Made by a program: the position numbers and the translations under genes
NCBI GenBank assembly: GCA_003221195.1
Contig: QHQO01000022.1
Location: 1-40,982 of the forward strand
Reading direction: 5' to 3'
Length of the DNA: 40,982 nt
From: Verrucomicrobiota bacterium
Lineage (GTDB): Bacteria; Verrucomicrobiota; Verrucomicrobiia; Chthoniobacterales; UBA10450
Notes under the pieces: model-generated
The model's input: the letters and a program-made list of their open reading frames with translations, nothing else
The model's database searches: none
What the model was told of the DNA's origin: nothing
In this document: in pieces, positions 26,057 to 40,538 of the stretch
Position numbering within the stretch: the first letter of the stretch is position 1
How the letters are laid out: each line of letters begins with the position of its first letter

Positions 26057-28243
26057 TTACTTGCACCATTGATCGACCCAATCGTTCACGGTTTTGTACC
26101 AGAGCTGGCTGTTCTGCGGCTTAAGCACCCAATGACCTTCGTCCGGGAAATACAACATCTTCGACGGCACCTTCAGCACTTGCAGCGTCGTGAATAGATC
26201 GAAACCTTGAGACACATCGAGTCGATAATCGTTTTGTCCGTGCACGACCAGGGTCGGCGTTTTGAAATTCGCCGCGTATTCGTGCGGTGACCATTTCCGG
26301 TAAACATCCCGTTTCTTCCATGGGGGACCGCCGAATTCCCAGTTTGCAAACCAAAGCTCCTCTGTCGTGCCGTACGCCGATTCCGCGTTAAACATGCCAT
26401 CATGCGACACGATGCATTTGAAACGATTGGTGTGGCCTAACAACCAATTGGCCATGTAACCGCCGTAGCTCGCACCCAGCGCCGCTTCGCGGTTTTTGTC
26501 GATGAATGGGAATGTCTTCTCCACGTAATCGAGTCCCTTCATCACGTCGATATACGGTTTGCCGCCCCAATCCCCGCTGATCGAGTCGGTAAACTTCTGT
26601 CCGTAACCGGTCGAGCCGTGGAAATTAATCATCACCACCACGTAATTTGCGGTCGCGGCGAGCAACTCCGCGTTCCAGCGATACGTCCACGAATTTCCCC
26701 ATGCTCCTTGCGGCCCGCCGTGTAGCAAAAACTTCAGCGGATATCTTTTGTTGGGATCAAATCCCGGAGGCTTGATCAAGAATCCCTGCACGTCGTCGTT
26801 GTTCGCGCCTTTGAACGTGAACGACTCCAACGGCTGCATGTCGATCTGTGACAACAACGCGTCATTCATGTGTGTTACAGCAGTCGGATTGGCATCGTGT
26901 CCCGTTGAAAGATCGAGTCGCCAAATCTCATTTGGTGCCTGAATTGACATACGTGTGAAGTACAGAATGCCGTTGTTAATCGTTAGATCATCGGCATGCA
27001 GGCCATCGTTCTCTGCAATTGTTGTCCAATTCGCGCCGACTGAAGTCGAAAAGAGCGGAGAAGTGCCACGTCGCTCTGCCGTGAAGACGATTTCACCTGT
27101 ACGGGACGCCCAGCTGAAGCTTCCGATCGAATATTCAAAGCTTTGAGCGACTTCGCGCGTGTTCCCAGTTTGTCGATCTTGCACTAAGAAGCGCCATTTA
27201 TCGGCTTCGAAGCCGGCGCGCGCTTGCGAACGCCAAGCGATATATTTTCCGTCCGGCGAATAGAGCGGCGTGGTGTCGGCGCCGGGACTGCTGGAAATTT
27301 TCTTTGGCGCGCCGCCGCTAATCGGCACGATGAAAATTTCGTTGTTCGTGCTCGTCGCTTCGACTTCGTCGATGTTGCTCGTGTACGCGACCTCCTGGCC
27401 GTCCGGCGAAATCGCATACATGTCCTGACCGCCTAACGAGAACGGTGGCACGTCGTGATCGCCTGGGGTGAGATCCCGTGGCACAGGCATCTTGCCTGTG
27501 GGGACACCGGGCGTCTCGCCTGGTGTTTGCGATTCGGCAGGCGAGACGCCCGCCTGCCTCACAGACAAGATGTCTGTGCTACGATCTGCACGCGCGTCCC
27601 CACTTAACACAAACAAATGGCTGCGCTTGAATTCGGTGAACGCGTTCCAATGCCGATAGAACAAGCGCGTGAAGATTTTCGCTTTTACTTTGCTTTTCTT
27701 CAGTTCTTCATCGCGCTTCTTGTTGCAGTCGTCGCTTGTCACGCCGGAGCCAGGCGGAGGCGGATTGCAATCCGGATAGACAGCCGACACAAAGACGATG
27801 TTCTTCCCGTCCGGCGACCAGATCGCGCCGTCGGCGCCGGTCGAGATTGATGTGACTTGATGCGGTTTCCCAACGAGCTGCCCCGCTTCCGGATCGAAAT
27901 CGCACATCCAGACTTGCGTCGGATCGGTTGCTTTCGAGGTCCAGATCAAGCGCTTGCCATCAGGCGAAAAACGCGGCCGCTCCTCGTGATTCGGCGTTGG
28001 ATTCAATCGATGCGATTCACCGCCGCTGGCCGGCACGATCCACAAATGCGAAATTTTCGTGTTCGCGGCCAGATCGACATCTTCGCAATCGAACACGACC
28101 CATTTGCCATCCGGTGAAGGCACAGGCGCGCCGACCCGCTTGAGTTTCATCATCTCTTCGAACCTGAATGGATGTTTTTGCGAAGCGGTCTGAGCAAACA
28201 TTGAGCCCGCTAAGAGAACGAAAATGCCAATAAATATTTTCAT
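26057..28243 (-). CDS. S9-family serine peptidase (acylaminoacyl-peptidase / DPP-like), secreted
   Basis: 728 residues. MKIFIGIFVLLAGSMFAQ is a signal peptide, so it acts in the periplasm or outside. Residues about 30-470 form a WD40/PD40-like propeller (VPSPDGKWVVFDCEDVD, RFSPDGKRLIW, IWSPDGKNIVFVSA, YSPDGKYIAWRSQ), and about 480-728 the alpha/beta hydrolase. The triad is visible: Ser592 in GASYGGY, Asp672 in HGQNDYRL and His704 in DEGHWVL. The family removes N-terminal dipeptides or acylated residues from peptides. Residues about 218-255 (STDILSV...TGKMPVP) are not propeller sequence but the translation of a four-hairpin palindromic element. It lies convergently with nothing; its 5' side faces the CDGSH gene. 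Confidence 0.92.
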   Translation of the reverse strand: MKIFIGIFVLLAGSMFAQTASQKHPFRFEEMMKLKRVGAPVPSPDGKWVVFDCEDVDLAANTKISHLWIVPASGGESHRLNPTPNHEERPRFSPDGKRLIWTSKATDPTQVWMCDFDPEAGQLVGKPHQVTSISTGADGAIWSPDGKNIVFVSAVYPDCNPPPPGSGVTSDDCNKKRDEELKKSKVKAKIFTRLFYRHWNAFTEFKRSHLFVLSGDARADRSTDILSVRQAGVSPAESQTPGETPGVPTGKMPVPRDLTPGDHDVPPFSLGGQDMYAISPDGQEVAYTSNIDEVEATSTNNEIFIVPISGGAPKKISSSPGADTTPLYSPDGKYIAWRSQARAGFEADKWRFLVQDRQTGNTREVAQSFEYSIGSFSWASRTGEIVFTAERRGTSPLFSTSVGANWTTIAENDGLHADDLTINNGILYFTRMSIQAPNEIWRLDLSTGHDANPTAVTHMNDALLSQIDMQPLESFTFKGANNDDVQGFLIKPPGFDPNKRYPLKFLLHGGPQGAWGNSWTYRWNAELLAATANYVVVMINFHGSTGYGQKFTDSISGDWGGKPYIDVMKGLDYVEKTFPFIDKNREAALGASYGGYMANWLLGHTNRFKCIVSHDGMFNAESAYGTTEELWFANWEFGGPPWKKRDVYRKWSPHEYAANFKTPTLVVHGQNDYRLDVSQGFDLFTTLQVLKVPSKMLYFPDEGHWVLKPQNSQLWYKTVNDWVDQWCK
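27482..27578. repeat. Composite four-hairpin palindromic element inside the S9 peptidase gene
   Basis: cacaggca-TCT-tgcctgtg (27482-27500, perfect 8-bp arms), caccgggcg-TCT-cgcctggtg (27505-27525, 8 of 9), gcaggcg-AGA-cgcccgc (27537-27553, 6 of 7) and cacagaca-AGA-tgtctgtg (27560-27578, perfect). The outer and inner pairs mirror each other, so the whole is a nested palindrome. It stays in frame within the peptidase. Confidence 0.82.
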
Positions 28244-32367: not shown

Positions 32368-35004
32368 TCAACGGCTGCTGAGGGTTTTTCCCTTTTGGAG
32401 ACGGTCCGCGCGAGGGAGACCGTCTTCGAGAACGATTGGAATGAGGGAGGCAGACGAAACTTGCACGCTTTCGTTCAAACCGATCTGAAGTAATGCGCCG
32501 CGATTCCACGACTCGACCGTGGATGCGCCGTCGAACACGAGATTGTCCAGCGAATACGCGATTGGGCAGCCATGATAGAAATCGAGCGCCTGAACACAAT
32601 GCGGATGCGAGCCAACCACGACATCGACTCCGCCATCAATCAGCCAGCGGGCGAGTTCACATTGTTCGTCAGTGACCTTTTCGCTGTTTTCACCTCCCCA
32701 ATGAACCAGGCAAACGACAAGATTTGCGTGTGATCGCGCATTCGCAATTGCCGCGCTCAGGCCAGATCGATCCGATGCTGCGGCGATTTGGTGTCCTGCA
32801 GCAGGTCCGACATCAGTGATCGCGAGGAGAGCGATCCTTTTCCCATCGAGTATCGAGAAGAAACTCGGCGTGTAAGTTTTGCCGCCGGGTTTTCCGACCC
32901 CGATCGGCTCGATCTGCTCCTGGACCAAGTGCGCTGCGCAGTCCTCCAACGCCGCGGTCCCAAAATCGAGCGCATGATTATTCGCCAACCCCATTGCGCG
33001 AAATCCGGAGCGACGGAGCAATTGCGCGGACTGCGCAGGGGCGCGGAATGCGTAGCGCTGCGCGGAAGCGCCAAGATTCGAGATCGTGCATTCCAAATTT
33101 GCCGCGGCGAATGATGCGCTGTGTAACAGTGGTACGATGCCAGCAAACGGGTCTATTCCACTTTCGATCTTCGCTGCGCAACTACGACCGAGCATTACGT
33201 CGCCACCAAAAACAAGTGTCGCGGCGGATTTTGGTGGCGGCACGCGAAACAAATCGAAACAATTTTTCCTGCGCTCTTTTAGGAGTTCCCCAAGCGTTAG
33301 AATTTCCGGGGCGCCCCCAAGCTGGTGGGCGACTAGGTCGTTTTCACTGAGAATACCGACCGGTTGCCGGTCTTCCATTACCGCTGCAACGTGCGTACCG
33401 AGATGCACGATTACGCCGCGCTGCAGATCCTCCGCGCTTATCCTTGCCGTGCCCGGTGTGGCTGATCGCGTCACAAGATCAAGATCCTCGCGCAGTCGTT
33501 TCGGGTCCGACCACGGCACGCGCTGGCCCTGGCGCCGCAACGCGTAAACAACGAAGTTCGCGCAATCAGCGCCGAGATTCGTTTCCGGCCCGGTATCTGA
33601 ATCTTCTGACAATTCGCCACTTCCGAAAAGGTACGGAAGGCCAAACTGCTCAGTGATTGCGGAACGGAAACCGGTGCCGATAAATCGTCGCAGCTCCAGA
33701 ACAGGGGTTTCGCGGATCTTCCCATCGACGACAGCGCAGGCTCGCAAACGCAGCGAACCACAGTGCCACTGTGGATCAAACAAATTGTCGAGCTTGCTTA
33801 TTGGCAGCGCCGAATCGTGATAATCGATGGGAAGTTCATTCCAGGCAGGACGTGACGCCGCATTCGCGACAAACCCAACCTGATCGGTCGACAAATCGGT
33901 CAGATTGCAACGCAAATATTTCGGAGTCAGCGCGAACCATTCGATCTTTTCCGATTTCGTCGTCCAAGGCTCGGCTACGAGCTCGATCTCGGCCGGTTGG
34001 TCCGCGAGTATGCGCCAGACTTTGTCTGTGGAAGGCTGACGGTCTTTAACTTGAAGATGCAACTGCGGCGCTTCGTCATTCCAAGTGCCCAAGAGTTGCT
34101 CCCAATGGGTTGTGTCATGTCCTACGAGAATGCGTTGACGCTCGGACAAAATTCGCGCGCGGAGCTCCTGTGGTGCCTGCGCGAGATCGAACACCGGTAG
34201 TTTCTTGCCGTTTATCATCGATTCCTTTGCGAGATTTGAATGGTCATTGGCAACCGTCTGAAATGGCTCGAACTCGACCTGTGCCGTCGGCAACGAGATC
34301 ACGGCGGTCAACGTCAGTTCGAGTAGCCGGTACGCTTCGTCTTCGTCCTTCAAGTACGGACGAGAAATTGCAAACGTGATGGCGCGAAGGTTTGGCCGTT
34401 CGATCACGAAATTCCAGATGCGGGCAAAAGCTATTTCTTGTTCGGTGGCGGAGAGGCCTGCGAAATAATCGAGATCAATCGTCACAACCAATGGCTGGTT
34501 TGGATTGATATGCTTGTCGAGATTGTGGAAATCAGAAACGACATACGATTCGCGCAATGATCCCGATTTTCGCGGCGCTGCTTCGAGATGCCCATCGAGT
34601 AACGCTGTTGCTTCTTGCTTGCGCTTGTCGACTTCGGATGTGGAAAATTCCCCGGCGGGGACCCAGATTACTCTTGCAATCGGCGCCGGCATAAGTGGCT
34701 CGATCCAGTTGAAGCATTGGACAGTCCCGTTGCTGCGCCAGTGAGCAAGCAGCGCCTGTCGGTCCCGCGAGGATGCGACATTTCGCAGCGCGTTCCGAAT
34801 GTTATCGGAATCGAAGATCCCGGACGCATCGCTATGCGCATCGAAGAGGATAAGCGTGCACGGCTGATCCAAATCCAGTTTTTGGGCCAACCAATAAAAC
34901 GTCCCAGCGTGATTGTCCTCGATGTAAATGGGCAGAACCTTCGCTGTTGCGCTCGCCACGACGAGCAGCGCCGCCGTGCAAAGCGCAGTTGCTCGCTGGT
35001 TCAT
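32368..35004 (-). CDS. Three-part exported protein: UPF0489 domain, NlpC/P60-like middle, CapA-like phosphoesterase
   Basis: 878 residues. A signal peptide (MNQRATALCTAALLVVASATA) is followed by VLPIYIEDNHAGTFYW and LILFDAHSDAS (about 50-61), the metal-site signature of UPF0489 (arginase/deacetylase-like fold). Residues about 440-590 contain GADCANFVVYALRRQGQ and GVIVHLGTHVAAVME, the Cys and His blocks of an NlpC/P60-like peptidase. From about 595 a CapA/PgsA metallophosphatase domain follows: LVFGGDVMLGRS, ANLECTIS, GLANNHALDFG, CLVHWGGEN and VVVGSHPHCVQ. CapA-type proteins are tied to poly-gamma-glutamate export. All parts suggest cell-envelope peptide or polymer processing. Its ATG overlaps the stop of the upstream gene (ATGA). 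Confidence 0.82.
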   Translation of the reverse strand: MNQRATALCTAALLVVASATAKVLPIYIEDNHAGTFYWLAQKLDLDQPCTLILFDAHSDASGIFDSDNIRNALRNVASSRDRQALLAHWRSNGTVQCFNWIEPLMPAPIARVIWVPAGEFSTSEVDKRKQEATALLDGHLEAAPRKSGSLRESYVVSDFHNLDKHINPNQPLVVTIDLDYFAGLSATEQEIAFARIWNFVIERPNLRAITFAISRPYLKDEDEAYRLLELTLTAVISLPTAQVEFEPFQTVANDHSNLAKESMINGKKLPVFDLAQAPQELRARILSERQRILVGHDTTHWEQLLGTWNDEAPQLHLQVKDRQPSTDKVWRILADQPAEIELVAEPWTTKSEKIEWFALTPKYLRCNLTDLSTDQVGFVANAASRPAWNELPIDYHDSALPISKLDNLFDPQWHCGSLRLRACAVVDGKIRETPVLELRRFIGTGFRSAITEQFGLPYLFGSGELSEDSDTGPETNLGADCANFVVYALRRQGQRVPWSDPKRLREDLDLVTRSATPGTARISAEDLQRGVIVHLGTHVAAVMEDRQPVGILSENDLVAHQLGGAPEILTLGELLKERRKNCFDLFRVPPPKSAATLVFGGDVMLGRSCAAKIESGIDPFAGIVPLLHSASFAAANLECTISNLGASAQRYAFRAPAQSAQLLRRSGFRAMGLANNHALDFGTAALEDCAAHLVQEQIEPIGVGKPGGKTYTPSFFSILDGKRIALLAITDVGPAAGHQIAAASDRSGLSAAIANARSHANLVVCLVHWGGENSEKVTDEQCELARWLIDGGVDVVVGSHPHCVQALDFYHGCPIAYSLDNLVFDGASTVESWNRGALLQIGLNESVQVSSASLIPIVLEDGLPRADRLQKGKTLSSR

Positions 35005-36344
35005 CGGGCTGCCTGAATTTCAGGTTTCTTAGTCAGTGGCGCTCGCAACTCAACCAGCGAGATGCACGTGTCACGAAATTGCGTACCACGATACACGCCT
35101 TTGATCACGAGCTTTATCTTGTTAACTGGCTTAGTGTAGTTCCGCACGCGGATGAGGTACGGACTTTCGAATCGCTCATCGGGAATGTTTTCCGTGAATG
35201 TGTCTTCGTCATTCAGCGTTATCTCGAGTTGCGCGACCCGATTGTTTTTCGACCACGGCTCCTTTTCATCGTACTCGTAATATCCAGGCTGGATTAGGAT
35301 GCCATAGAGTGGAAGCGGGCGTTTCACGTTGAGCGTTACGCTCTCGCCTATCGCGTCGCCTTCGACTCCCTCGGCCCATGGCGAATGAACCTCTCGGGTT
35401 GGATCGCCCTTTATGTTAACGACGTCGTAATTGTGTTTGCCCTGGGCTGCCAGCGTTGAGCTGGCGGTCGCATCGTAATCGGTATGATCGAGAAAGTATT
35501 GATGGTCCCTAAGAACATACGATGCATGACGGCTAAGGTCTTCTTCGCCATATCCGGTTGGATACTTGTCGTATTTTGGATGCGCGATAATGCGGATGTC
35601 ATCCGCCAGCGATGGTTTCAGGTTTTCAAACTTCCATTCGTAATGCGAGTCGTTGATTTTTTCGAAGCGCTCCTTTGGTTTTTCGATGGAGACGTCTTCG
35701 GGCTCGGGGTGCAGGATGTTGATCTCGATTTTCCCTTTGCTAATCGGCCCTTTCCAAGTCGCCGCCGGCGAAAGCGAATACGCGAATGTCGCGTCGCTGA
35801 TGTGTGCATCGTCCGAGACCGATTCGTCGTTTTCGGCGTACTTCGCGCGGTAACTAATCATCACTTCGCGTGTTTGGTTTCGGTCGAACGGAATGACCGA
35901 TTTTTTCCATGACTTGATCGTGGAAACATTTTGCTGCCAGAACTGTCCGGACGTTGACTCACTGGCGTGCTCTTTCGGTCCCGATGCGTTCGTCGACGGC
36001 AGTTTTTTTCCGTCGACGGTGATTTGATACTGGTCAACGTCGGCGCTCTTTGTGTCCGTATCGGCGTCGGGATTTTTTCCCCAGCGCTCGACCGGAAAAA
36101 AGAACTCCTGCTCCACTTTAGGTCCGGTGTTGTGCATCCGGTAACGCACCTCTACCGATGCGTACTCTGGGTGCAGATCAATTTTCAGATTTTCATCCTC
36201 AATCGCGACGTCAGTTTTGCGACTTTTGTCCGAGGCGCTGGCGCTACCGGTTCCCGGAACGCCTGTCTGCCAGGCACCGCCATTGGCTAAGAGCGTGCTG
36301 ATTCCGGCGATGAGTAACGCAAGCCCGAGCGAAAGTTTTTTCAT
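35001..36344 (-). CDS. Secreted protein with possible discoidin/NADase-type C-terminal domain
   Basis: 447 residues from the ATG at 36344 (MKKLSLGLALLIAGISTLLANG, a clean signal peptide); an ATG 11 codons earlier spoils it. The first part (VEVRYRMHNTGPKVEQEFFFPVERWGK) looks like a beta-sandwich domain. The last 150 residues (LPLYGILIQPGYYEYDEKEPW, RVAQLEITLND, LIRVRNYTKPVNKIKLVIKGVYRG) resemble the NADase-type glycan-binding or F5/8C-like fold found in bacterial surface proteins. No catalytic motif is evident. It lies 60 bases after the metal-binding-domain gene and overlaps the CapA-fusion gene, so it belongs to that operon. Confidence 0.75.
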   Translation of the reverse strand: MKKLSLGLALLIAGISTLLANGGAWQTGVPGTGSASASDKSRKTDVAIEDENLKIDLHPEYASVEVRYRMHNTGPKVEQEFFFPVERWGKNPDADTDTKSADVDQYQITVDGKKLPSTNASGPKEHASESTSGQFWQQNVSTIKSWKKSVIPFDRNQTREVMISYRAKYAENDESVSDDAHISDATFAYSLSPAATWKGPISKGKIEINILHPEPEDVSIEKPKERFEKINDSHYEWKFENLKPSLADDIRIIAHPKYDKYPTGYGEEDLSRHASYVLRDHQYFLDHTDYDATASSTLAAQGKHNYDVVNIKGDPTREVHSPWAEGVEGDAIGESVTLNVKRPLPLYGILIQPGYYEYDEKEPWSKNNRVAQLEITLNDEDTFTENIPDERFESPYLIRVRNYTKPVNKIKLVIKGVYRGTQFRDTCISLVELRAPLTKKPEIQAAR

Positions 36345-39818: not shown

Positions 39819-40367
39819 ATGCATCGTCTCTCTTATCTCTCGCCGAAAACCGAAGTCCGCGAAAGTAAGATTCACGGACGCGGTTTGTTTGCGACTGCCG
39901 ATATTGCCAAGGACGAAATCGTGGCCGTGAAAGGCGGGCACATTGTCGATCGAAAAACTTTGCGCGAAAAAATCACGCCCAGGCTCGGACCGGTGGAAAT
40001 CCAGATCGACGACAATTTGTTCATCGCGCCAGTGACCGACGAAGAGCGCGAGCTATCGATGTTGTATTCGAATCACTCGTGCGATGCGAATCTCGGAATA
40101 CGCGGCGAGATCACGTTCGTGGCGATGCGTGACATCCGCGCTGGCGAAGAACTCACGCATGATTGGGTGATGACGGACGACGACGATTATTCCGTTGAAT
40201 GCAAATGCGGTGCGCCCAATTGCCGCAAAATTGTCACGGGCAAGGACTGGCAGCGACTGGAATTGCAAAAACGTTACGAAGGGTACTTCTCAGCCTATTT
40301 AACGCGCAAAATTGCCGCCGGGTTGTCATTCCGAGCGAAGCGAGGAACCTCACAATCGGATCGGTGA
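39819..40367 (+). CDS. SET-domain protein (putative lysine methyltransferase)
   Basis: 182 residues. SKIHGRGLFATADIAKDEIV opens the SET domain, NHSCDANLGI and RDIRAGEELTHDW supply the pseudo-knot motifs that bind S-adenosylmethionine and the target Lys, and CKCGAPNCRKIV is a post-SET zinc motif. Bacterial SET proteins methylate histone-like or ribosomal proteins; the target here is unknown. The last residues (LSFRAKRGTSQSDR) are encoded by a dispersed inverted repeat (from 40325), so the natural C-terminus was probably near KIAAG. It diverges from the MFS gene with only 8 bases between the two proposed starts. Confidence 0.87.
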   Translation: MHRLSYLSPKTEVRESKIHGRGLFATADIAKDEIVAVKGGHIVDRKTLREKITPRLGPVEIQIDDNLFIAPVTDEERELSMLYSNHSCDANLGIRGEITFVAMRDIRAGEELTHDWVMTDDDDYSVECKCGAPNCRKIVTGKDWQRLELQKRYEGYFSAYLTRKIAAGLSFRAKRGTSQSDR

Positions 40368-40538
40368 TTACACTGGACCAGCGTCTCACCAGTACGCAGC
40401 GCGAGATCCTTCGCTCTGCTCAGGATGACGGCTTCACATTGGTGCGCGATCCATCATTGCAGATCGACATCGCGAGGTTGTCGGTCCTAGAGCATAATGC
40501 CTTTGAGCCAGAAATTCCTTGGCTTCGCTCGGAATGAC
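40325..40538. repeat. Composite GTCATTCCGAGCGAAG inverted repeat
   Basis: 40325-40351 pairs imperfectly with 40403-40429 (about 21 of 27), and gtcattccgagcgaag at 40325-40340 recurs in exact inverted form at 40523-40538. The first arm forms the end of the SET gene; the rest fills the 178-base gap before the ahcY stop, where I see no gene. Confidence 0.75.

Follow-up and report, generated by a model that had tools for sequence, protein, structure and literature searches.

The window analyzed here, a stretch of 40,982 nt from a Verrucomicrobiota bacterium (assembly GCA_003221195.1, contig QHQO01000022.1), carries on its minus strand two overlapping genes: one codes for an exported protein in which three enzyme domains are joined (from here on, the fusion), and the other, immediately upstream, for a secreted protein (the partner) that ends in a short tail with a terminal Arg. 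A preliminary description of this DNA had proposed that the fusion joins UPF0489, NlpC/P60 and CapA domains, in that order, and that it works in several steps on an envelope polymer. In window coordinates, the features of the gene pair are the following:

32368..35004, minus strand: open reading frame (ORF) of the fusion, a triple-domain exported protein of 878 amino acids (aa) with an ATG start (P0001)
34939..35004, minus strand: predicted signal peptide of the fusion, residues 1-22, with cleavage between ...ATA and K; assigned by eye from a positive start and a hydrophobic core
34111..34938, minus strand: peptide arginase (OspR/UPF0489-like) domain, residues 23-298; model structure and recurrent profile matches
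33682..34065, minus strand: beta-rich middle, residues about 314-441; secondary structure of the model, with Ig-like-looking but unspecific Foldseek rows
33235..33678, minus strand: NlpC/P60 domain, residues 443-590; fold match, catalytic residues and profile
32530..33219, minus strand: CapA/PGA_cap metalloenzyme domain, residues about 596-825; PF09587 profile
35001..36344, minus strand: partner gene, for a secreted 447-aa protein, DUF4424-like plus NADase_transloc/F5-8C (discoidin); 4-nt overlap with the fusion gene (ATGA)
35049..35474, minus strand: NADase-type glycan-binding (discoidin-like) domain of the partner, residues 291-432; profile
35004..35033, minus strand: C-terminal tail of the partner, TKKPEIQAAR, residues 438-447; P441 and R447 are near-invariant in fusion-linked partners

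The limits of the fusion ORF were exactly those first proposed, and we confirm an exported three-enzyme protein with the domain order as first read: a peptide arginase-like domain (UPF0489/OspR-like), a beta-rich middle, NlpC/P60 and CapA (PGA_cap). By eye, the N-terminal stretch MNQRATALCTAALLVVASATA resembles a signal peptide, in agreement with the export that had been claimed. The three domains and their order are established by profile hints that recur across 20 homologs, by matches of a structural model and by the CapA profile. An AlphaFold model of the full fusion protein with 8 close homologs was poor (predicted local distance difference test, pLDDT, 54.9) and was set aside; the usable model covers residues 23-600 and derives from an alignment of 20 homologs (pLDDT 89.9; predicted template modeling score, pTM, 0.87). 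The top Foldseek rows for this multi-domain model were unrelated proteins (GH158, Wzt, Ig domains) and were discarded, so the domain claims rest on structural comparison with VIA-align and on profiles. The arginase-like and NlpC/P60 assignments come from the model and are bounded by the folds in the comparison list, other folds being possible, and the CapA assignment comes from sequence.

The N-terminal domain (model positions 1-276, protein residues 23-298) matched the peptide arginase OspR (8brp_C) with a Z of 16.7 over 213 residues, whereas ordinary ureohydrolases (agmatinases and arginases) reached a Z of 9.4 or less against this same domain. The arginase-like part of the preliminary description is thus borne out and can be named more precisely, as peptide arginase-like. 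Profile matches were faint: the fusion protein from the window alone matched NF052474 (peptide arginase FlmR/OhkR) with an E of 0.005 and a score of 17.4 against a cut-off of 350, and did not match PF12640 (UPF0489); at E<=0.1, 9/20 family members matched PF12640 and 8/20 matched NF052474, and the scores seen stay under the curated cut-offs (for PF12640, with a cut-off of 27, they were 17.3 for L054 and 19.3 for L056). The ligands of the binuclear metal center (Mn) of OspR are His12, Asp39, His41, Asp43, Asp165 and Asp167 (PMC10028609). Counterparts of all six are kept in the fusion family: H32, D55, H57 and D59 in the 18/18 true members with letters at these positions (not counting the truncated L033, where a further H32 lines up by chance) and D177 and D179 in 20/20, to which E102, also present in the 20/20 members with letters, can be added. 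Among 236 genomes of the class, no arginase domain was found outside of the fusion: nine genomes matched, eight of them through the fusion itself, and the match in G667 was due to chance, in an unrelated protein of 617 aa. As far as seen in the genomes sampled, this arginase subfamily appears to be confined to the fusion.

The middle part of the fusion adopts a papain-like NlpC/P60 fold in the AlphaFold model, as had been proposed, with VIA-align matches of model positions 421-568 (protein residues 443-590) to the NlpC/P60 structures 8tw1 (Z 9.6), 8er5 (Z 9.4) and 3h41 (Z 9.1). The PF00877 profile matched the fusion protein of the window alone with an E of 0.1 and 13.1 bits, under the cut-off of 23, and 8/20 family members at E<=0.1; the Cys-His-His triad (C481, H538 and H560) is identical in 21/21 members. 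The CapA part was clearly identified by PF09587 (PGA_cap), with an E of 5.5e-56 and 190 bits against a cut-off of 27 (194 bits in its own genome), and the score for NF038314 was 63 against a cut-off of 700. In members with letters there, the invariant positions of this part are D602 (21/21), E638, N676, H677 and D680 (20/20), and H768, E772 and H802 (19/19). A profile of the CapA part retrieved the PDB chain 8gq9 (E 2.6e-33), titled as a poly-gamma-glutamate synthesis protein, which we take to be MslH from the residue numbers it shares with PMC10406935. MslH, the nearest relative of this part with a solved structure, is a lasso peptide epimerase that works at the C-terminal residue using paired His/Asp and a metal (PMC10406935). 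Of the eight residues shown in that work to be essential or important, the fusion keeps seven and not the full set: Asp11, Glu44, Asn87, His88, Asp91, His259 and His295 have invariant counterparts, with residue roles taken from PMC10406935 and the correspondence counted by eye on the profile alignment. Cys/His and metal residues are retained: none of the active-site positions checked in the three enzyme domains changes in any member with letters there, and the three sites are thus under joint selection.

Full-length or near-full-length homologs of the fusion were found within the genus, in further families of its order and elsewhere in the class, and the three-part order recurs in other families of the phylum with 29-80% identity to the protein of the window (fragments L033, L035, L038, L062 and L067 were omitted from some domain alignments). 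The fusion occurs in 8/387 sampled genomes of the phylum Verrucomicrobiota and, fragments included, in 17/213 genomes of the order; it is, hence, a rare conserved Verrucomicrobiota family and not a local accident. Our scan of a wider collection recovers close relatives only, and the family could also occur beyond Verrucomicrobiota. A PADLOC search for defense systems gave no match for the fusion, the partner or the divergent pair from G456 described below. No fusion was found on plasmids, where 98 records matched, none of them at 80% query coverage, and the 20 of these 98 that were listed aligned to the CapA part only; the partner was likewise not found on plasmids, and no viral contig had a relative of the NlpC part. 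Some copies of the gene are damaged. It is decayed in G030 (L117), and in G039 (L067 / L007), a genome 97% complete with two tandem partner copies, a single TGA interrupts it within the CapA part; in G022, residues 1-768 lie on L035 and about 750-874 on L118, a separate contig, owing to misassembly or rearrangement.

The partner has a signal peptide, assigned by eye, with a mature N-terminus starting NGG. PF14415 (DUF4424) was found at E<=0.01 in 19/22 partners (28.7 bits for that of the window, with a cut-off of 27), and the NADase_transloc/F5-8C domain in 21/22. Using tblastn, we found the partner immediately upstream of the fusion and in the same direction in 20/20 loci (the window, L032-L035 and L054-L068), and it was the only gene conserved beside the fusion across these loci among ORFs at least 80 aa long. 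Of the sampled phylum genomes, the eight with the fusion are the same eight with a full-length partner; four other genomes matched the C-terminal domain of the partner only, and a more sensitive partner profile gave partial matches only, in 14 other genomes. In the order sample, the partner is present in 15/17 genomes with the fusion, the exceptions being G030, with its decayed copy, and G021, with a fragment at a contig end. Six order genomes had partner matches without the fusion: an intact partner beside fusion remnants in G031, a fragment in G548, and weak homologs in G456, G458, G566 and G037. The G031 remnants and the decayed gene of G030 give the impression that the system is eroding in that genus. 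Distances among partners and among fusions correlated with an r of 0.96 over 16 loci, with the species tree not controlled (L033, L035, L062 and L067 were left out, and there is no L038 partner). Separately, genus g26 has a conserved secreted protein of 470-544 aa (L077-L080, L127-L138 and L144) with the same C-terminal glycan-binding domain, which stops just past this domain; the genomes that carry it do not have the fusion, except for G285, which has both types.

The tail is a short extension past the last beta strand of the partner, with the consensus KKPxIQ[PAG]AR in fusion-linked partners, and Arg is the terminal residue in 22/23 partner copies. These 22 Arg residues are specified by all six Arg codons and followed by TGA, TAG or TAA, while the junctions between partner and fusion genes include 4-nt overlaps, longer apparent overlaps and gaps. 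A cause at the DNA level for the conserved Arg, such as the ATGA overlap or a ribosome site, is ruled out by this variety, indicating that the constraint acts on the protein. As a background, 22/134 neighboring ORFs of 250 aa or more, called mechanically, end in Arg; a simple binomial probability for the terminal Arg would be 1e-16, a figure that ignores relatedness and is no valid test. The pattern P-x(4-5)-R fits 21/22 aligned partners (alignment A7, without L035, whose partner is broken) and 0/17 homologs unlinked to the fusion, three of which end in Arg without a tail. These 17 omit L114, which is frameshifted, and L139, which is limited to its N-terminal part, and are not independent, as 14 of them belong to genus g26 or to one group of close relatives; they include L144, from G285, whose fusion and tailed partner lie elsewhere. 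A search for the tail pattern in 22 genomes, in which not every non-partner match was opened, revealed no other credible tail-bearing gene, which makes the enzyme appear dedicated to a single partner. Two of the non-partner matches were ORFs of 11 and 12 aa, several others arose because TRR admits TGG, which is not a stop, and the pattern missed the partners of G543, G549, G550, G305, G271, G285 and G430, some tails lying outside of it.

A divergent arrangement exists in G456 (L113, 1067-3381, plus strand), with a partner homolog that ends in GWKKKQKE, without the tail, followed by a frame of 335 aa that aligns only to fusion residues about 307-577 (in the numbering of its best-matching homologs) and lacks both arginase and CapA. 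This NlpC-like protein has, by eye, Gln at both catalytic His positions and does not match PF00877, and no second intact pair of this type was found in 40 genomes of the G456 family. The arrangement fits with the tail going together with the arginase and CapA domains, although only this one example is available, possibly a degenerate one.

Catalysis by NlpC/P60 enzymes proceeds via a Cys thioester. Peptide arginases convert peptidyl Arg to ornithine (Orn) and urea (PMC10028609, PMC12707348), and these two chemistries, together with that of MslH and with the near-invariant terminal Arg, make modification of the tail the most economical reading. The likeness of the N-terminal domain to peptide arginases, the activity of MslH at a C-terminal residue and the terminal Arg of the neighbor point to a protein tail as the substrate; the several steps on an envelope polymer that were originally envisaged for the enzyme are not supported. 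Our tentative preference, which we put at somewhat under an even chance, is that the fusion is a periplasmic enzyme dedicated to the C-terminal tail of the partner, with the conversion of Arg to Orn as its likeliest step. The pair would be a two-gene exported protein-modification system of which the fusion is one half: the upstream gene would provide a secreted glycan-binding scaffold with a short tail ending in Arg, and the downstream gene a dedicated three-site enzyme working on that tail. The OspR-like domain would, most likely as the first step, turn the terminal Arg into Orn and urea; the CapA/MslH-like domain may then use metal-assisted acid/base chemistry on this C-terminal residue, an activity that in this case the partner tail alone suggests; and the NlpC/P60 domain could contribute a thioester step, either to trim the tail or to attach it to a peptide of the cell wall. 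We observed the gene pair, the export signals (by eye), the invariance of the three sites and the restriction of the tail to fusion-linked partners; the tail as substrate and each chemical step we infer from the chemistry of the families. As a whole, the pair suggests an undescribed chemical finishing of a protein end outside the cell. A sortase-like, ornithine-based attachment seems improbable: the arginase would make a C-terminal Orn, the NlpC/P60 domain, as a transpeptidase, would join its delta-amine to a peptidoglycan stem peptide, and CapA would set the stereochemistry or protect the C-terminus.

Several points weigh against tail modification. The Glu11 of OspR, directly before the first His in the EEHxE motif, is its proposed catalytic residue (PMC10028609), and the corresponding position in the fusion is N (10) or S (8) in the 18/18 members with letters; likewise, the counterpart of MslH His261 is Gly in 18/19 members, within an HWG motif. 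Known peptide arginases are enzymes of ribosomally synthesized and post-translationally modified peptides (RiPPs) and act on Arg within short precursors, not at the ends of secreted proteins of 450 aa. One partner copy ends in SRK, in a genome whose second copy ends in GAR, and in G031 (L111, 4781-6308, plus strand) the partner is intact, with the tail QPAR, next to mere remnants of the fusion gene. Additionally, the conserved tail may just as well serve for docking. Short motifs at peptide ends often act as docking sites, and docking without tail chemistry is the strongest rival, rather unlikely in our estimation and ranking above the other alternatives: the tail would not be a substrate, the partner would be a glycan-binding adaptor that holds the enzyme at the cell surface, with its true substrates elsewhere, such as peptidoglycan stem peptides or secreted peptides from the cell itself or from competitors. 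This agrees with the glycan-binding type of domain in the partner and with G456, where a partner homolog and a beta/NlpC-like protein are kept while arginase, CapA and tail are missing, so that the older core could have consisted of adaptor and NlpC; however, the Gln at both His positions and the lack of a PF00877 match make this weak support for an active core. Moreover, a docking motif requires neither the extreme C-terminus nor a final Arg, and the tail is confined to systems with the arginase-bearing enzyme.

The original proposal of a multi-step enzyme on peptidoglycan or on a poly-gamma-glutamyl-like polymer, in which NlpC/P60 would be the endopeptidase, CapA the polymer enzyme and the partner a polymer-binding subunit, is in our view unlikely. 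It accommodates the NlpC/P60 triad, invariant in every member, the export of both proteins, judged by eye, and the fact that the nearest solved structures of the NlpC part are cell-wall peptidases (such as LytE, 3h41 and MepS), and the NlpC/P60 part may have a role on an envelope polymer. Nevertheless, the proposal leaves the peptide-arginase domain, with its six invariant metal ligands, without a function and the tail unexplained, genes for polymer synthesis or capsule are not conserved beside the fusion, and we know of no Arg-bearing envelope polymer in these bacteria. We give still less weight to a periplasmic RiPP-like pathway, in which the fusion would mature a small secreted peptide with the DUF4424/discoidin protein as carrier or scaffold. 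To our knowledge, RiPP maturases are cytoplasmic in the described cases, and conservation among the neighboring ORFs, taken from 80 aa upward, is limited to the partner; in favor of this pathway, the solved or characterized relatives of two of the domains, OspR and MslH, are RiPP enzymes (PMC10028609, PMC10406935).

Elsewhere in the window, two sequences have the look of repeats. The protein encoded at 26057-28243 on the minus strand has an insert, STDILSVRQAGVSPAESQTPGETPGVPTGKMPVPR, at 27548-27571 (minus strand), which resembles a translated repeat element and was not found in the other loci compared. At 40334-40429, plus strand, SEARNL...REILRSAQDD, a pair resembling translated repeats, adjoins the SET-domain-like ORF 39819-40367, also without a copy in the other loci compared.

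If the modification of the tail is true, peptide arginase chemistry, described to date for ribosomal peptide natural products, would extend outside the cytoplasm to the end of a full-size secreted protein, and would share one polypeptide chain with two other enzymes. One group of CapA-family domains would also gain a named substrate, and an orphan secreted pair would become directly testable by mass spectrometry, as a single enzyme and a single partner with one predicted residue and a predicted mass shift of -42.02 Da (Arg to Orn).

In agreement with the preliminary description, which knew of no protein with this order, we found no account joining these domains in the literature searched, with subscription papers mostly outside of it. 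The domains are known and their chemistries are probably known as well, while the architecture, location and pairing are probably undescribed. Peptide arginases have been described in work on RiPPs (PMC10028609, PMC12703449, PMC12707348); OspR, FlmR, OhkR and BipC, of the UPF0489 superfamily, have in common with the fusion the fold and the H..DxHxD..DxD Mn ligands (same sources). In contrast to them, the fusion is exported and joined to two further enzymes, has EEH changed to [ED][N/S]H in most members, and its partner is a 447-aa secreted protein, not a short precursor. With MslH and the CapA family there is a strong profile match, although this is the only domain in common and the fusion has Gly for His261. 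The NlpC/P60 part resembles LytE, RipA, BCE_2878 and MepS in fold (Z about 8.5-9.6), in the Cys-His-His order and in the PY...DC motif, but differs from NlpC/P60 peptidases in being embedded between the arginase-like and CapA domains and in that the single sequence falls below the Pfam cut-off. Finally, the partners are, like lpg2210 and other DUF4424 proteins (PMC3848476), secreted beta-sandwich proteins, mostly PF14415-positive. That article reports DUF4424 by itself, combined with YARHG or, in one case, with CARDB, and describes no recurrent gene neighbor; compared with the DUF4424 proteins described there, the partner has an NADase_transloc domain and an obligate neighbor.

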